A DNA stretch of 20,101 nucleotides, taken from positions 1 to 20,101 of IMG/VR virus record IMGVR_UViG_3300036652_002318; one strand, given 5' to 3'. A model generated the notes under the pieces. That model had not been told where the DNA came from. It was given only the letters and a program-made list of their open reading frames with translations, and searched no databases. Every line of letters starts with the position of its first letter. Position 1 is the stretch's first letter. Shown here in pieces: positions 3,023 through 9,585 of the stretch. The position numbers and the translations under genes were made by a program. Source of the stretch: a virus.

Positions 3023-3277
3023 GTGAACGCGGGCGAAATCATCGCACTGATTACCGCTGCTTGTGGCATCGGCGGTCTGGTGTTCACTGCGCTCAGGTAC
3101 AACCGAGATTCGACTTCCACAGCAGTTGCTACTCAGTCGCAGATTGTCCACGATATGAAGGTTCTGAACGACGAGTTACAGGCTTCCCGCGACCAGCTCA
3201 GGTCAGAAGTGGATCGTTTGCGTGGAGAAATAGACAGGTTGAATCTCGAATTGCAGATTCTCCGAAACCATGAGTGA
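3023..3277 (+). CDS. Small membrane protein with coiled coil (lysis-cassette member)
   Basis: An 84-residue product from GTG 3023, three bases after the terminase stop, with an AAGGAA-type ribosome site near 3008-3013. Residues 5-24 (IIALITAACGIGGLVFTAL) form one membrane segment. R25 and R28 follow it and no basic residues precede it, which predicts N-out, C-in topology. Residues about 44-80 form a heptad-rich coiled coil (LRSEVDRLRGEIDRLNLELQ). Its last 8 bases overlap the start of the collagen-like gene, so the two are probably translationally coupled. Single-TM coiled-coil proteins are common near phage lysins, where they are often called holin-like or membrane proteins. Its exact role is not shown by sequence. 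The cytoplasmic coiled coil could pair with the cytoplasmic N terminus of the next product. Confidence 0.75.
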   Translation: MNAGEIIALITAACGIGGLVFTALRYNRDSTSTAVATQSQIVHDMKVLNDELQASRDQLRSEVDRLRGEIDRLNLELQILRNHE

Positions 3278-4184
3278 TGAACTTGCCAAACCGACATTCG
3301 ATGAACTGTACGCGCAAGTTACCGAGCTTGATCGCAAGCGACGACATCGTGACCGCCGGTTCTACTATACTTGGGTGGCGATTGCCTTGCTAGCGATCAT
3401 CTCTTCAACAGCGATCATTCTGGCGCAGCGCGCAAGCAACCAAGTAACCAAGGAAGTTCAAGCCACAGCCACTCATGCAGTGGAACAGAATGATCAGATT
3501 GTGGCCTACATGCGTGGTGAGCAAGGCATCCCTGGTGTACCTGGTTCGAACGGTCAAGATGGTTCACCAGGACTTCCTGGTTCAACAGGCACGCCAGGAG
3601 CTACGGGTCCGCCCGGTCCTAAAGGACCAACTGGTTCTGCTGGTGATACCGGTCCTGCTGGTGGAATTGGACCATCAGGTGCGAACGGCGAAGTGGGAAC
3701 TCCTGGTACTAATGGTCAAACAGGACCAGTCGGCGTTGCTGGTTCAAATGGTGCGACTGGCGAGAAAGGTGATACTGGTGCAAAAGGAAACACGGGAAAA
3801 GAAGGAGCGGCCGGAACTGTCGGTCCCATCGGACCCGCTGGACCTACTGGACCGCAAGGCGTTCAAGGTCCGCCAGGACCAGTTGGCGCAACAGGCGTTG
3901 CGGGTCCGTCGCAACCGATCACAATTCAGACAGTCAGTGCCGCGTCACCGAACGATGTCTCACAGGACAAGAGTGTGACAGCGACTTGTCCTGCTGGTTC
4001 AGTGTTGCTTGCAGGTGGTTATCACTGGACACCCGCGACACCAGGGATTACTGCCATCGCTGATGAACCTGACGCTGCAAACGGTTGGCATGTTGAAGCT
4101 ATCCCAGACACGTTTCCTGGAAACTCTCTTTGGCAGCTGACAGTGTACGCTTTGTGCAATATTCCTTCTGCAGCGCCGAGGTAA
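3270..4184 (+). CDS. Membrane-anchored collagen-like protein with C-terminal Cys-containing domain
   Basis: A 304-residue protein in four parts. Residues 1-30 are cytoplasmic and strongly basic at 22-30 (RKRRHRDRR). Residues 31-53 form one membrane helix. Residues 54-82 are a short linker that may form a coiled coil. Residues 83-214 are 44 uninterrupted Gly-X-Y triplets, many with Pro at X or Y (GPP, GPK, GPT). Residues 215-304 form a compact non-collagenous tail with C240 and C296, possibly a disulfide. The positive-inside rule puts the collagen and tail outside the membrane. Collagen-like tracts are usual in phage fibres, but an N-terminal membrane anchor and a place between two lysis-type membrane genes are not. 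It may act in lysis, as a surface trimer or as a spanin-like connector; function is inferred only. The start ATG lies inside the preceding gene. Confidence 0.85.
   Translation: MSDELAKPTFDELYAQVTELDRKRRHRDRRFYYTWVAIALLAIISSTAIILAQRASNQVTKEVQATATHAVEQNDQIVAYMRGEQGIPGVPGSNGQDGSPGLPGSTGTPGATGPPGPKGPTGSAGDTGPAGGIGPSGANGEVGTPGTNGQTGPVGVAGSNGATGEKGDTGAKGNTGKEGAAGTVGPIGPAGPTGPQGVQGPPGPVGATGVAGPSQPITIQTVSAASPNDVSQDKSVTATCPAGSVLLAGGYHWTPATPGITAIADEPDAANGWHVEAIPDTFPGNSLWQLTVYALCNIPSAAPR
3516..3911 (+). repeat. Collagen Gly-X-Y tract, 44 triplets without interruption
   Basis: Every third codon from 3516 encodes glycine for 132 residues. Pro occupies many X and Y positions and charged triplets (GEK, GDT, GAK, GKE) cluster in the second half, a pattern that in bacterial collagens substitutes for hydroxyproline in stabilising the triple helix. 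The nine-base periodicity (ggt/gga recurring) makes the DNA itself repetitive and prone to slippage. Confidence 0.95.
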
Positions 4185-4186
4185 CC

Positions 4187-4456
4187 ATGGCAAAGCTTTC
4201 ATCAGACAAACCGGTTTTCACAGCGATGGTACTGGCGCTGGTGTTGATCGTGGTAATTGCCGGTGCTGTGGTCACCATCACCAATCCCAATACTCTTTCC
4301 TTCCACCAGTACGTTACGGATGTAACGACACTCGCCGGCGCTATTGGTCTTGGTGCCGGCGTTGGTCGTGGAATCGAAGCTTACGGAAACGCTCAAGTAA
4401 CGAAGACCGAATCACCTTACGACACTTCTGCTCCTGAGAACACTCCTGATGCCTGA
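4187..4456 (+). CDS. Holin-like small membrane protein
   Basis: An 89-residue product starting at ATG 4187, preceded by GAGG at 4178-4181. The frame extends upstream to 4130, but that part overlaps the collagen gene and the 4187 start has the ribosome site. Residues about 10-31 (VFTAMVLALVLIVVIAGAVV) are a strong membrane helix. Residues about 47-62 (TLAGAIGLGAGVGRG) form a weaker, Gly-rich second hydrophobic segment, followed by a hydrophilic acidic tail. Size, two hydrophobic segments, a charged C terminus and a position directly before the muramidase fit a class II-like holin that would time membrane permeabilisation. The last 8 bases overlap the lysozyme start. No family is recognised with certainty. 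Confidence 0.7.
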   Translation: MAKLSSDKPVFTAMVLALVLIVVIAGAVVTITNPNTLSFHQYVTDVTTLAGAIGLGAGVGRGIEAYGNAQVTKTESPYDTSAPENTPDA

Positions 4457-5222
4457 CACACGTCTAGCTGATATCTCTGAGTTCCAAGCGAACTTTGACG
4501 CACCGGTGTACCTTGCTGGTGGTTACAAGTGCATCATCGTTCGCGCTCACAACGGTTACCGTCCTGACCACAAGTGGCCACAAAGACGCGACTACGTTCG
4601 CCGTCATCCGTTCATCGCAGTCGGTTACTACCAGTACCTCGCTCATGACCGCGATGCTGCTCAGCAGGCACGCGAGTTCATCGGCGCAGTTGGGAATCTG
4701 GCACCGAACGAGTTTCCGATACTTGACTTAGAGGAAGGGTCGGGCAATCAAACGGTCAGAGCAAACGCTTGGTTCAAGGTTGTAGATCCTTGGTTCGGTT
4801 CTCTAGCTACGCTGTACGCAGGTTTGTCCTTCGGTAAGTCAAACCTCGGTGGTTGGTCACATTGGTCGCCGCGTACACGGTGGATCGCTGCTTACCAGTC
4901 ACGTGAACCTTCTGATCCTCACGAACTGTGGCAGAACACAAGTAGTGCCCATTTCCCAGGATTGACAGGTGGTGTCGATGGCAACATCTTTCATGGTACC
5001 GCTCAGCAGTTCCTTCGAACCTTCCGGCACGTTTCAACACCAACACCGTCACCTGGACCCGCACATTCGCAAGCTCAATCGCAAGTCACGGTTCTCAAGC
5101 ACGACGGTAGGATCGAAACGTTTGTGGAGAAGGCGTCTGGTGAGGTAGTTCATCAGTGGCAAGTCAAGGAGAACGACGGTTGGCAATCCAGCTGGTCGTC
5201 ACTCGGGAATCCTGGGAGGTAG
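4449..5222 (+). CDS. Endolysin: GH25 (Chalaropsis-type) muramidase with C-terminal PLL-like repeat
   Basis: A 257-residue lysozyme that should cleave the MurNAc-GlcNAc bond of peptidoglycan. The GH25 signature runs in order: ADISEFQANFD at 7-17 with D8, GYYQY at 59-63, the catalytic ILDLEEG at 91-97 with D93 and E95, WIAAYQ at 145-150, and ELWQNTS then GGVDGNIFHG to close the barrel at 159-183. A Pro/Ser/Gln-rich linker (about 194-212) leads to a 45-residue C-terminal module with the pattern HDGRIETFVEK, VVHQWQ, GWQSSW and SLGNPG. This resembles one blade of PLL-type beta-propeller lectins and recurs in the M15 peptidase two genes on. There is no signal peptide, so export should depend on a holin. 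The start overlaps the holin-like gene by 8 bases. Confidence 0.93.
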   Translation: MPDTRLADISEFQANFDAPVYLAGGYKCIIVRAHNGYRPDHKWPQRRDYVRRHPFIAVGYYQYLAHDRDAAQQAREFIGAVGNLAPNEFPILDLEEGSGNQTVRANAWFKVVDPWFGSLATLYAGLSFGKSNLGGWSHWSPRTRWIAAYQSREPSDPHELWQNTSSAHFPGLTGGVDGNIFHGTAQQFLRTFRHVSTPTPSPGPAHSQAQSQVTVLKHDGRIETFVEKASGEVVHQWQVKENDGWQSSWSSLGNPGR

Positions 5223-5940
5223 GGAATGAGACACGATCCGTTGTACGTACTGATTTACTTTATCTTGGCACTTATTCTGCTCGCGATTTTGCTCAGAGTC
5301 ATCTCGGTTTATTAGCGTGCCCACTTACACCAACGGTCAGTTGCCGCCCAACGCGCTTGCTCCCATCGCAAATGGGCAGCTAGCTCGTGCTGACTTTTGC
5401 GTGGCTAGTTGGAATGCTATGAACGTCGAAGCTCGTTCCCGTGGCTTGCAGATAGTTCCGACAGGCAGCAAGTCCTCCTACCGGACGTATGCTCAGCAAC
5501 AGGAACTGTATCGTGCTTACTTGAGCGGAATGGGCAACTTGGCGGCCAAGCCAGGAACGAGTAATCACGGTTGGGGACTCGCAGTGGATGTGGCGTCACA
5601 AGCAATGAGGGCGATGATCGACAGAATTGGCGGTAAGTACGGTTGGGCAAAGAAATGGTCAGATGCTCCTACTGAATGGTGGCACATAAAGTACGCTGCC
5701 GGCATTTGGTCAGGCATTGACCCTGGTCCTTTTGGTGTCATCAAACCGCCGGCACCATTACCGATAACGGAGGCAGATATGATCGCCGCAGTAGTGAAGA
5801 AGAACGGTGCTATTGAAGTGTTCGTGGAGAAGCCAGACGGTCAGGTTTGGCACACTTGGCAAAACGCTGAAAACAGCGCCTGGTGGGGTTCCAAGCCAGG
5901 ACAAAATGCGGCATGGCAATCGCTCGGGAACCCCGGTAAG
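5085..5940 (+). repeat. Shared C-terminal PLL-like blade, copies at 5085-5219 and 5785-5940
   Basis: Both lysins end in the same module: VxxxxGxIExFVEKxxGxVxHxWQ, then a Trp-containing segment and SLGNPG before the stop. The second copy has a longer loop (SAWWGSKPGQNAAW). DNA near the ends is also close (tcactcgggaatcctgg and tcgctcgggaaccccgg). It indicates duplication or exchange of one cell-wall-binding cassette between two catalytic domains. Confidence 0.8.
5226..5315 (+). CDS. 29-residue membrane miniprotein between the two endolysins
   Basis: A very short frame from ATG 5226 to TAG 5313-5315, preceded by GGGAGG at 5214-5219 with a six-base spacer, one of the best ribosome sites in the window. 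The product begins MRHDPLYVLIY and continues as one hydrophobic helix (LIYFILALILLAILLRVISV). It fills the 94-base space between the GH25 gene and the GTG of the M15 gene exactly, leaving one base before the next start. A single-helix peptide in a lysis cassette could be an accessory holin, pinholin or regulator. The function is inferred from position and hydrophobicity only. Confidence 0.7.
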   Translation: MRHDPLYVLIYFILALILLAILLRVISVY

Positions 5941-5943
5941 TAA
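5317..5943 (+). CDS. Endolysin: M15 (VanY/D-Ala-D-Ala carboxypeptidase-like) peptidase with C-terminal PLL-like repeat
   Basis: A 208-residue zinc peptidase starting at GTG 5317, one base after the miniprotein stop. The M15 signature is complete: SSYRTYAQQQELY at 53-65, TSNHGWGLAVDV at 81-92 giving zinc ligands H84 and D91, and EWWHIKY at 120-126 giving catalytic E120 and ligand H123. Phage members of M15 cut the peptide stems or crossbridges of peptidoglycan. A linker rich in Pro (143-149) joins it to the PLL-like repeat at about 157-208, shared with the GH25 enzyme. Together the two enzymes attack both the glycan and the peptide part of the wall. No signal peptide is present. It is the last gene of the lysis cassette, followed by the only real intergenic gap. 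Confidence 0.92.
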   Translation: MPTYTNGQLPPNALAPIANGQLARADFCVASWNAMNVEARSRGLQIVPTGSKSSYRTYAQQQELYRAYLSGMGNLAAKPGTSNHGWGLAVDVASQAMRAMIDRIGGKYGWAKKWSDAPTEWWHIKYAAGIWSGIDPGPFGVIKPPAPLPITEADMIAAVVKKNGAIEVFVEKPDGQVWHTWQNAENSAWWGSKPGQNAAWQSLGNPGK

Positions 5944-6106: not shown

Positions 6107-9100
6107 ATGAGTGTAATAGCGCCACCGAGAGTCATCGTCGCCACTGACGACCCTGGTCAGGGTTACGGTTTCTGGCGCTGGACGATTGACATTACTGGTG
6201 TCGAAGATGGCGAAGTGGGTGTCAATGCTGCTAGCTGGTCAGCAGTCACTCAGATTTTCGTAGCTCGTATCAACGGTCGCGGTGTCGATGTTAGCAACAT
6301 CATGCCTGAGATCAAAGTTGGCGAGACAATGTACGTTCAGGCATCAGTTGATCGAACAGCGTTCGGGCATTTTCAAGTGAAAAGTGCGCCAGTTGCTGAC
6401 AATGGTTACTTCACAATTCCCGTAACCTTCGTGGCCGGCGGACTTGCAATGCCCGGTAACGCTCAGGTGATGTCCGTCGATCCTATTCCGAGTGGCGGCA
6501 GTGGCAGCGCAGGTCCGCAGGGACCACCAGGCCCAACAGGACCATCGGGCGCCAACTCAACCGTTCCTGGTCCACAAGGACCAATTGGTAATGCTGGTCC
6601 ACAAGGAACTCCAGGAGTGCCAGGAGCTGCGGGGCCGACAGGCGCAACCGGCCAGTGGTTCACGTACATCGGAACAGGAACTCCCGCCGCGGGCACTTTC
6701 CCTGGCGAGAAGGATGGTGACATGTGCGCCCGGTCCTCGGACTCGGAGGTTTTCAAACGCGTTGGCGGTGTTTGGGTGGACCAGGGTTACGCACTCGGCT
6801 ACGCGATGCAAACCGCAGCTCGGATGTACCGCAGCTCGGGAACCGTCCTGTCGTCACCAGGATTTATGAAGATTCCGCTCGACACGGCCAGCTACGACGC
6901 GGGCAGCAACCTCCAGATCGCCAACAATCGCTATGCCTGCCCAGTCGGTGGTTACTACCAGGTAAACGGACTCGTAGCAGGAAACGAGAGCTCCTCCGAC
7001 ACGATGATGGCGTCCGTCTACGTCAACGGTGCTGAGCGCGTGCGAGGAAGCCACGTTAGTACTCCCAGCCAGTCCATAGCGATCGAAGTGAACGACATCA
7101 TCAGTTGCAATGCCGGTGACTATATCGAGCTGTGGGTCTACACGAGCACTGCGGACACGATCGCATCCGGCGCGCTCGGCGGACCATTCCTGTCCGTCGT
7201 AAAGGTGGACGTCGGCGGCCGTCCTGGAGCTCCCGGGGTGTCTGGCACGAGCTGGAAGCAGTACACCGGCGCGGGCACCCCGTCGCTCGCCGCTGTCCCC
7301 GGCAACGTCGGCGACTCGTGCGTTCGCACCGCCGACGGCGAGGTGTTCCAGCAGGTCGGCGGCGTCTGGGTCGACCAGGGCTGGTCGTTACAGGGCGCGA
7401 ACATGAACGCGACTTGCGTGGCGCGGGCGTGGTACTCGCTTGGAGCCAACACGTCGGCGAACACGGCGATGAAGATCCCCCTGAACATCGTGGACTTCGA
7501 CCCGGGGAACCACCTGATCATCGGCAGCAGCCGGTACGTCGCGCCCGTGGCCGGCTACTACCAGGTCGAGGGCCAGACGATGCACGCCGCCACGGCCACG
7601 GGACTTGTGTCCGTAGCCCTGATCTATGTGAACGGTGTCGAGCGCAGCTCGGGTGTACGGGCTCCAATCGGTGACCCGCAGAACTTCACGAGCTCTGTCG
7701 TGACCGACATCCTCAAGCTCAACGCCGGAGACTATGTCGAGCTGTGGATCTACGCGTCCGTCTCTGGCGCGCTGTACTCGAACCACGACTACAACTTCCT
7801 CGCCGTCTCACTGGTCGCTGCGACGGCGATCCAGCAGCAGCCGCTCCAGGTGGCGTCGCAGGCAAGGGCGTATCGCAGCGCGGCGCTCACCCTCACCGCG
7901 GCCGCCTTTACGAAGATCGCGATCGACACCGTCGACTACGACGCCGGCGGCAACCTCGCGATCGCGAACGGTCGCTACGTCTGCCCGGCCGGCGGCTACT
8001 ACCAAGTCAACGGGGTTCTGCCAGTCTCGTCCGGGATATCCGGCGGAGCTGTCATCGCCTCGATCTACGTGAACGGCGTAGAGCGCAGCCGTGGCGGCCG
8101 TGACGTAGGGGTTGGCAGTAGCCAGAATCTCACCGTCGAAGCCAGCGATGTCATTCGGTGTAATCCCGGCGATTACATCGAACTATGGGGCTATTCAACG
8201 ACGGCAGACCCTGTCACGACCGGTGCGACCCTCGGCGCGTCGTTGTCCGTCTCGCTTGTGGGTACGCAGCCGACCGCCGCACCGGCGAACGCGGCGAGGG
8301 CGTACCGTAATGCCGCGCTGACTCCGGCTGCGAGCACTTGGACGAAGGTTCCTCTCGACACGGTCAGCAGTGACGCAGGCGGAAACTTCTCGATCGCGAA
8401 CGGCAGGTACGTCTGCCCGGTGGCCGGAACCTACGATGTCATCGGTCAGACGTTCAGCGCCATGTCCGCGACTGGCACGTATACGAATTACGCGACCGCA
8501 ATTTACAAGAACGGTGCGATGTGGTCGTACAGCGGGCCGTACGCGGCCGTTCAGCAAGGTACGTCGTGCATGGTGGCAGACAAGATCCCGTGTAACGCTG
8601 GCGACTATCTTGAATTGTGGCTTTTCAACACGCAGGGAACTGCGTTGACTGGTACGTCTGGCAGTAACTTTATGTCCGTATCGCTGCTCACGGCCGCGCC
8701 CGCGTCGCTGCCGGTCACGACACCGCAAGTCGTCACGACCGCGCTGCCGTCGAACCCGGTCGACGGGCAGGAGTGCTACTTCGTCGCGGAACCGGCGAAC
8801 GGCGTCGTGTGGCATCTGAAGTACCGGGCGGCCGATCCCTCGCCGCACAAGTGGCAGTTCGTCGGCGGCGGATCAGTGATGTCCTATTCGGCGGCCAGTA
8901 CAACTACCAGCTCGACTACCTGGGTTCCAGTGGCCGGCCCGTCGGTCACGGTGCCGCTACCGGGTGATTACGAGGTTGAGAACGGCATGGCCATACAAGC
9001 CATGCAAGCCACGGCGGTCAATGCGTACGGCGGCGTCGCGGTCAACGGAACAGAAGCCGGGCAGAGCATGTTTTTCGTGAACGCCGGGATCTACAACGGC

Positions 9101-9241
9101 GCAAGCGTGGCCGGTGTAGCTCAACGGTTCCTCAACCTGCCCGCGGGGGCTGTTCTGACGCTGGTAGGCGAAGTAGCCGCAGCGCTGAGCACCGCGTTCT
9201 CCAGTGGTTGGCTCAAAGTGAAACCGATCCGATTGGGATGA
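6107..9241 (+). CDS. Large tail fibre: collagen stalk plus tandem C1q-like jelly-roll domains
   Basis: A 1044-residue protein. Residues 1-130 form an N-terminal beta-rich domain, probably for virion attachment. Residues 136-184 carry two collagen blocks (five and about ten Gly-X-Y triplets) split by STVP. A linker module ending GGVWVDQG occurs at about 185-230 and again at 381-430. Four homologous domains follow at about 238-368, 438-571, 586-719 and 729-862, each with RYxxPxxGxYxV, a VNG-type turn, NxGDYxELW and a final LSV strand. This order resembles C1q/TNF jelly rolls. A linker with VDGQECYFVAE leads to a fifth, diverged jelly roll at 923-1041. It probably trimerises through the collagen and binds the host surface. 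GC content is patchy and very high at 7200-8090. The ATG has no clear Shine-Dalgarno. Confidence 0.88.
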   Translation: MSVIAPPRVIVATDDPGQGYGFWRWTIDITGVEDGEVGVNAASWSAVTQIFVARINGRGVDVSNIMPEIKVGETMYVQASVDRTAFGHFQVKSAPVADNGYFTIPVTFVAGGLAMPGNAQVMSVDPIPSGGSGSAGPQGPPGPTGPSGANSTVPGPQGPIGNAGPQGTPGVPGAAGPTGATGQWFTYIGTGTPAAGTFPGEKDGDMCARSSDSEVFKRVGGVWVDQGYALGYAMQTAARMYRSSGTVLSSPGFMKIPLDTASYDAGSNLQIANNRYACPVGGYYQVNGLVAGNESSSDTMMASVYVNGAERVRGSHVSTPSQSIAIEVNDIISCNAGDYIELWVYTSTADTIASGALGGPFLSVVKVDVGGRPGAPGVSGTSWKQYTGAGTPSLAAVPGNVGDSCVRTADGEVFQQVGGVWVDQGWSLQGANMNATCVARAWYSLGANTSANTAMKIPLNIVDFDPGNHLIIGSSRYVAPVAGYYQVEGQTMHAATATGLVSVALIYVNGVERSSGVRAPIGDPQNFTSSVVTDILKLNAGDYVELWIYASVSGALYSNHDYNFLAVSLVAATAIQQQPLQVASQARAYRSAALTLTAAAFTKIAIDTVDYDAGGNLAIANGRYVCPAGGYYQVNGVLPVSSGISGGAVIASIYVNGVERSRGGRDVGVGSSQNLTVEASDVIRCNPGDYIELWGYSTTADPVTTGATLGASLSVSLVGTQPTAAPANAARAYRNAALTPAASTWTKVPLDTVSSDAGGNFSIANGRYVCPVAGTYDVIGQTFSAMSATGTYTNYATAIYKNGAMWSYSGPYAAVQQGTSCMVADKIPCNAGDYLELWLFNTQGTALTGTSGSNFMSVSLLTAAPASLPVTTPQVVTTALPSNPVDGQECYFVAEPANGVVWHLKYRAADPSPHKWQFVGGGSVMSYSAASTTTSSTTWVPVAGPSVTVPLPGDYEVENGMAIQAMQATAVNAYGGVAVNGTEAGQSMFFVNAGIYNGASVAGVAQRFLNLPAGAVLTLVGEVAAALSTAFSSGWLKVKPIRLG
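6512..6658 (+). repeat. Collagen Gly-X-Y tracts in the fibre stalk
   Basis: Five triplets (G136-N150) and about ten triplets (G155-W184) are separated by a four-residue break. The tract is much shorter than the one in the membrane-anchored protein at 3516-3911. Placement between an N-terminal domain and jelly rolls is the usual trimeric stalk arrangement. Confidence 0.9.
6818..8692 (+). repeat. Four tandem C1q-like domain repeats in the fibre gene
   Basis: The units begin near 6818, 7418, 7862 and 8291 and run about 390-400 bases each. The first two are preceded by a duplicated linker module. Units 3 and 4 share RAYRxAALT and SIANGRYVCP or AIANGRYVCP. This points to growth by unit duplication, with later divergence in the loops. 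Confidence 0.85.
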
Positions 9242-9243
9242 CC

Positions 9244-9585
9244 ATGACACTTATCGCGCAGTTCGATCTCGAGCAGGACCCGCCCGTCGTGGTCACGCTT
9301 TACGACTACGGAGACGACGACGTGCCCAAGCACTACAAGCCGCCGGAGTACGTGGACGTGACCGAAAAGGACCCGCGCCCGCAGCCTGGCTCGACTTTGC
9401 ATCCTGTTGACGGTTGGGTACATCCACCACCACCAGAGGATGTCCAAGGCTGGGCAGCGGAAATAGTTGCTGCGAACGAGACTTTTCTTTTAGACAAGAA
9501 TCCGACTGCACTGGAGACTGAACATCAGTGTCAGGCACTCACTAGACAGATCAATGGCATGCTTCAGAGGCAATACGGTCTGTAA
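9244..9585 (+). CDS. Small acidic protein after the fibre gene (unknown; possible fibre companion)
   Basis: I place the start at ATG 9244, two bases after the fibre stop, because GGGA at 9235-9238 gives a five-base spacer; ATG 9238, which overlaps the stop as ATGA, is the alternative. The product is about 113 residues: MTLIAQFDLEQDPPVVVTLYDYG, a Pro-rich acidic middle (EKDPRPQPG, VHPPPPEDVQGW), and a helical C-terminal third (LETEHQCQALTRQINGMLQ). No family is recognised. Small genes directly after fibre genes are often assembly chaperones, which is the best guess here. Its first 140 bases share the high GC of the fibre gene and the remainder has the lower GC of the head genes. Confidence 0.65.
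   Translation: MTLIAQFDLEQDPPVVVTLYDYGDDDVPKHYKPPEYVDVTEKDPRPQPGSTLHPVDGWVHPPPPEDVQGWAAEIVAANETFLLDKNPTALETEHQCQALTRQINGMLQRQYGL

Follow-up and report, generated by a model that had tools for sequence, protein, structure and literature searches.

The virus fragment analysed here (20,101 bases, hereafter the window) encodes, within a putative lysis operon, a protein that joins a predicted membrane anchor to a long uninterrupted collagen tract and to a C-terminal domain otherwise found mostly in exported proteins of Actinomycetota. We tentatively read this protein as an outward-facing, late-expressed, membrane-tethered trimer that has an accessory function in the terminal envelope step, working in a manner similar to the corynephage lysis protein LysZ. 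Each of its components has a precedent, but judged from sequence the combination of a transmembrane (TM) helix, 44 collagen triplets and an actinobacterial cap in a lysis operon appears to be new, and it was not found in phage records, IMG/VR or the open literature. It is possible, although we regard it as still rather doubtful, that the protein represents a class of its own among the lysis or surface components of phages of monoderm bacteria, namely a membrane-rooted, trimeric, wall-spanning collagen rod with a host-derived cap. The question touched is how lysis by Gram-positive phages ends after peptidoglycan has been cut and whether an equivalent of spanins is needed; if confirmed, a collagen rod that is anchored in the membrane and encoded in a lysis operon would be a rod-like answer, testable by deletion. 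The analysis of the collagen protein is based on one fragmentary genome and on surveys of capped extent.

Anatomy of the collagen protein

The collagen protein (304 aa) is encoded by an intact open reading frame at positions 3270-4184 (Table 1). Its Gly-X-Y run comprises exactly 44 triplets without interruption, as an earlier note on this DNA had counted, and the longest run in 1000 codon shuffles of the gene was 7 triplets. Pro accounts for 24% of the X and Y positions, and Y is most often Thr. A DNA repeat artefact was rejected as the source of the run, the underlying DNA not being a simple tandem repeat. At 0.286 nm per residue, the 132 residues give a rod of 37.8 nm, in agreement with the previous estimate of about 38 nm; the proposed match to the thickness of a Gram-positive wall is arithmetic only.

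The single TM helix claimed earlier was recovered as a strong segment, with Kyte-Doolittle hydropathy peaking at residues 34-52. The 15 residues ahead of it (ELDRKRRHRDRRFYY) are strongly basic, and an N-in/C-out orientation is therefore predicted, in keeping with the earlier description of a membrane-anchored protein pointing outward. Calling the entire cytoplasmic end basic was too broad, since residues 1-33 are nearly balanced (8 K/R versus 7 D/E) and the term holds only for the juxtamembrane part. In a single-sequence AF2 model of residues 1-87, one helix spans residues 10-85 (pLDDT 88.7, pTM 0.46) and is unbroken from the TM segment up to the collagen tract. The 33-residue N-terminus, the strong TM segment and the modelled helix continuing to residue 85 lead us to favour a signal anchor rather than a cleavable signal peptide, although cleavage after the hydrophobic segment, releasing the protein, is possible. 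Family searches with residues 1-82 returned no match below E 0.1.

The two cysteines noted previously (Cys240 and Cys296) are the only ones in the protein, and both lie within the C-terminal 90-aa domain, which AF2 modelled as all beta (pLDDT 89.6, pTM 0.77). Trimerization and a disulfide bond are, like the topology, predicted. An LPXTG anchor of the SclA/SclB type was rejected, as the C-terminus (...ALCNIPSAAPR) lacks a sorting signal. A canonical spanin was likewise rejected, because the translations of the collagen protein and its two TM neighbours contain no canonical lipobox.

Table 1. Features of the putative lysis operon and segments of the collagen protein
Feature	Position	Strand	Evidence
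84-aa protein (GTG start): TM at the N-terminus leading into a charged coiled coil; N-out/C-in orientation predicted	3023..3277	+	hydropathy peak 2.29; PHROGs without function; LysF1b-like topology
Collagen protein, residues 1-33: cytoplasmic segment (predicted), juxtamembrane part basic	3270..3368	+	sequence
Collagen protein, residues 34-55: one TM helix (predicted)	3369..3434	+	mean hydropathy 2.27; AF2 of residues 1-87
Collagen protein, residues 56-82: helical stalk running into the collagen tract (predicted)	3435..3515	+	AF2
Collagen protein, residues 83-214: 44 perfect Gly-X-Y triplets	3516..3911	+	sequence; Pfam Collagen E 2.8e-20
Collagen protein, residues 215-304: two-Cys beta cap domain (Cys240, Cys296)	3912..4181	+	alignment A4; AF2; 32/396 Actinomycetota genomes
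89-aa holin-like protein, two hydrophobic segments	4187..4456	+	sequence; hydropathy 3.06
GH25 muramidase (endolysin)	4449..5222	+	PF01183 E 6.2e-13; phrog_291 endolysin
VanY-type peptidase (second lysin)	5317..5943	+	PF02557 E 1.5e-9

The lysis operon and its surroundings

The operon encodes, in order, a TM and coiled-coil protein, the collagen protein, a two-TM holin-like protein, a GH25 muramidase and a VanY-type peptidase. The collagen gene shares 8 bp with the preceding gene, and the holin-like gene begins 2 bp past its stop codon, so that the lysis-cassette setting proposed earlier is borne out by two recognizable lysins downstream, a holin-like gene in between and overlaps of a few bases. 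The holin-like and the TM and coiled-coil genes were assigned by anatomy only: the former yielded no family match, and the latter matches phrog_1009 and phrog_6664, neither of which has an annotated function.

Within the window, a LamG fibre gene, a small gene and the large terminase subunit gene (TerL) precede the operon, and a collagen/C1q-type fibre, a Mu-like portal, a protease and further structural genes follow VanY; family searches of window genes extended as far as the protease. Two fibre genes (42-1184 and 6107-9241) thus lie near the collagen gene. In the product of the second, a short collagen tract precedes several tandem C1q/BclA_C-like head domains (phrog_15750, four stretches). 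No integrase or immunity genes were noticed in the window. Between GH25 and VanY, a micro-ORF of 29 aa with one TM segment (MRHDPLYVLIYFILALILLAILLRVISVY, 5226-5315) possibly encodes an extra holin or a releasin-like peptide. Furthermore, GH25 (5090-5219) and VanY (5781-5940) have a Trp-rich C-terminal module in common (DGRIE.FVEK..G.V.H.WQ...W.SLGNPG), probably a wall-binding blade, which is also present in the lysin relatives L082 and L170.

The TerL relatives are foremost an unassigned phage, Streptomyces phages and Arthrobacter phages. Together with the actinobacterial type of the cap, this sequence evidence suggests an actinobacterial host with a Gram-positive-type cell. A host prophage, sought via the portal in genome contigs, was not found.

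A cap domain shared with exported actinobacterial proteins

The C-terminal domain carries the motif C-P-A-G..L.GG...W...A.C and has no model in Pfam. The motif was first exposed by weak matches in Streptomyces plasmids and in PilV, a conjugative pilus tip adhesin, where it sits at the C-terminus. Used alone, the window cap matches 21 of 396 Actinomycetota genomes at the weak threshold of E <= 0.01 per genome, whereas a profile (A4) of nine members, the window cap among them, matches 32 of the 396 sampled genomes at E <= 1e-6. Matches to the actinobacterial collagen-cap proteins have per-genome E-values of 1.3e-5 to 1e-4, which is weak across 396 genomes; the invariant columns C, G, GG, W and C are all aligned in the window cap. 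Cap carriers in Actinomycetota are mostly exported proteins. Collagen stands directly ahead of the cap in about nine of some 40 distinct collected proteins, each with at least 14 triplets, the count being approximate because several gene models are partial ORFs. The tract has 159 triplets in L107, 35 in L108 and 22 in L119, and is likewise long in L117. Some proteins from Streptomyces and from other Actinomycetota carry three or four tandem copies of the cap (L088, L112, L118 and others).

The cap defines an actinobacterial family that has no name so far and merits a Pfam entry; it recurrently terminates collagen tracts and is common to phages and a conjugative pilus adhesin. On present sequence evidence, the window protein can be described as a membrane-tethered version of this actinobacterial exported collagen-plus-cap design, and the phage probably fused a host surface module of collagen and cap to a membrane anchor. 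A PDB sequence search gave chance antibody matches only, and Foldseek with the cap model returned nothing at E <= 1e-3. Fold similarities to the PCSK9 C-terminal domain and resistin (Z 7-8) fall in a range that the comparison program rates as common, and no fold family is claimed.

Relatives in phages and viral contigs

The earlier note had proposed searching phage genomes for a TM segment, collagen and this cap beside lysins; no second case was found in 50,697 phage records or IMG/VR. By tblastn, neither the whole protein nor its N-terminus or cap matched any of the phage records, and protein searches of IMG/VR with the N-terminus and cap confirmed nothing. The TM and coiled-coil protein, the holin-like protein and the collagen proteins of L003 also had no usable match in the phage records. 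A DNA-motif scan of IMG/VR identified one more viral cap carrier, a 163-aa protein of L173 (5183-5671, minus strand) in which an export-like hydrophobic N-terminus is followed by four triplets and by the cap (profile E 1.4e-9). Its gene lies in the tail module of a 72-kb contig, with a group of virion structural protein, Dit and tape-measure genes on one side and further genes of the tail region on the other.

The closest terminase relative (L002, TerL 78%) encodes two small TM proteins and an amidase between TerL and portal, and L004 (TerL 61%) combines a membrane protein with a VanY-like protein and a GH19 enzyme in this interval, which these relatives show to be a lysis locus of exchangeable content. 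L002 contains no collagen gene, nor do the closest lysin relatives (L082, L083, L084 and L170), of which L082 and L170 lack TM genes as well; this type of cassette evidently does not need the collagen gene. L083, whose GH25 is 66% identical to that of the window, encodes in the place of the collagen gene a 97-aa single-TM N-in/C-out protein with two cysteines outside, followed by holin-like, GH25 and VanY genes. This 97-aa protein has no sequence similarity to the collagen protein.

The sister phage L003 (TerL 65%) encodes a 123-aa protein (9205-9576) with an export signal, 16 collagen triplets and two cysteines, the gene of which overlaps a TM-coiled-coil gene. The pair lies about 0.4 kb upstream of TerL, and no lysin was recognized nearby. 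The TM-coiled-coil proteins of the window and L003 look related (shuffle z 4.9), whereas the N-termini of the two collagen proteins are unrelated (z -0.5). A second exported collagen protein of L003 (8126-8803), with a clear signal peptide, 21 triplets and a C-terminal two-Cys domain, is encoded beside this pair, also upstream of TerL. Given these genes upstream of TerL in L003 and the one in the tail module of L173, an exported collagen in a phage need not belong to lysis.

Possible functions

In the reading that we tentatively prefer, the collagen protein would be made late, together with the lysis genes, as a homotrimeric type II (N-in/C-out) protein, with three TM helices holding the rod in the cytoplasmic membrane. 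The helical stalk would run into a 38-nm collagen triple helix bearing three disulfide-closed beta caps at its outer end, within or just past the cell wall. The rod would extend from the membrane through the wall, where the cap would grip a wall or surface polymer, and the envelope would give way after GH25 and VanY have cleaved the peptidoglycan. The sequence itself shows the anatomy of the protein, the operon and the family of the cap; late expression, a cap ligand and a role in lysis are what we infer here, and the LysZ-like action would consist in an N-in/C-out, envelope-directed function.

Several lines of evidence argue for this role: the collagen gene is wedged between the TM and coiled-coil and holin-like genes with two lysins next; the TerL-portal interval is a lysis locus in L002 and L004; L083 encodes an outward TM protein at the same place before its holin-like, GH25 and VanY genes; LysZ, as reported in PMC13056207, provides a precedent; the strong TM segment has its basic flank on the predicted cytoplasmic side and continues into the collagen tract as an unbroken helix in the model; and the cap comes from a domain of mostly exported proteins. 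Against it stand the absence of the collagen gene from L002 and the closest lysin relatives, the L003 pair upstream of TerL with no lysin recognized nearby, the tail-gene setting of L173 as the only other viral cap protein found, and the fibre genes close by in the window. No whole-protein homologue was found, and hence no conserved link to lysins, which also counts against a role in lysis, as does the possible release of the protein by cleavage.

A close second, itself doubtful, is a surface coat, in which the membrane-tethered rod is shown on the infected cell and the lysis operon supplies only late co-expression. Such a coat might mask receptors and thereby exclude superinfection, or it might glue infected cells and progeny to surfaces or to neighbouring cells. 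Against it, proteins for exclusion are as a rule produced early or during lysogeny, and integrase or immunity genes were not noticed in the window fragment. The close packing of the gene between two holin-like neighbours and the outward TM protein in a similar place in L083 also count against a coat. Cap and collagen are nevertheless an exported design in Actinomycetota, the cap motif ends the adhesin PilV, and the exported collagens of L003 and L173 outside lysis cassettes keep a surface coat alive. Phages moreover offer precedents for superinfection exclusion by a protein exposed at the cell surface, for example the lipoprotein Ltp (PMC3952083).

A virion fibre, with the hydrophobic N-terminus packed into the tail instead of a membrane, seems improbable. 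Nearly all annotated PHROG matches are tail proteins, most phage collagens are fibres, as are the EPcl proteins (PMC3368898), the L173 cap protein is encoded between Dit and minor tail genes, and the cap weakly resembles R-pyocin fibre heads in fold (Z 5.1). However, the TM segment is strong and has a basic flank, a fibre attachment domain is absent, with residues 1-82 matching no family usably, and the collagen fibre encoded further on in the window (6107-9241) is laid out as fibres usually are, lacking a TM segment; the L173 protein likewise starts with an export-like hydrophobic segment.

Least probable is a holin regulator, whose TM helix would act on the holin or the TM and coiled-coil protein to set lysis time, its bulky rod restraining the helix or sensing the state of the wall by a logic like that of the T4 T-holin and antiholin: known holin regulators are small and a 44-triplet rod exceeds what a regulator needs, although the TM-coiled-coil/collagen overlap recurs in L003 and the neighbours topologically resemble LysF1a/LysF1b (PMC13056207).

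Comparison with known systems

The earlier note knew of no phage lysis component of this design. This holds for collagen, no collagen-bearing lysis protein of a phage having been found in the published open literature, but not for the topology: LysZ of corynephages CL31 and Cog is reported to be a 177-aa Gram-positive phage lysis protein with a single TM segment and N-in/C-out orientation that is required for efficient lysis and linked to surface lipoglycan (PMC13056207). The window protein shares this layout (a single TM segment, predicted N-in/C-out topology, location in a lysis cassette and extracellular bulk, the host class being inferred), whereas LysZ is not described as collagen; the likeness is one of described layout. 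The genes flanking the collagen gene resemble, by topology only, the holin-like pair LysF1a/LysF1b, given in the same paper as a two-TM protein and an N-out/C-in single-TM protein with a charged tail (PMC13056207). For mycobacteriophages and for Gordonia phages, too, lysis cassettes with multiple TM proteins are on record (PMC13056207, PMC9671378).

The EPcl prophage collagens are similarly phage-borne and combine collagen with a C-terminal globular domain, but they are side-tail fibres with phage fibre and trimerization domains, and no TM anchor is described in the available part of the report (PMC3368898). The actinobacterial collagen-cap proteins (L107, L108, L117, L119, L151) share with the window protein a collagen tract followed by the same two-Cys cap, and an export segment is present in most of those with a complete N-terminus. 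Their N-termini are signal-peptide-like, in contrast to the long N-in segment and basic-flanked TM helix of the window protein, and they are not known from phages or lysis operons. Both L003 proteins are, like the window protein, exported collagens with a Cys-containing end from the same phage lineage, and the gene at 9205-9576 also overlaps a TM-coiled-coil gene; its product differs in a more cleavable-like signal, only 16 triplets, a different cap and no adjoining lysin. Finally, animal class A scavenger receptors and transmembrane collagens are built in the same order, with a cytoplasmic N-terminus, TM segment, helical stalk, collagen and C-terminal globular domain. These proteins are eukaryotic, and the likeness to the window protein is one of layout only.
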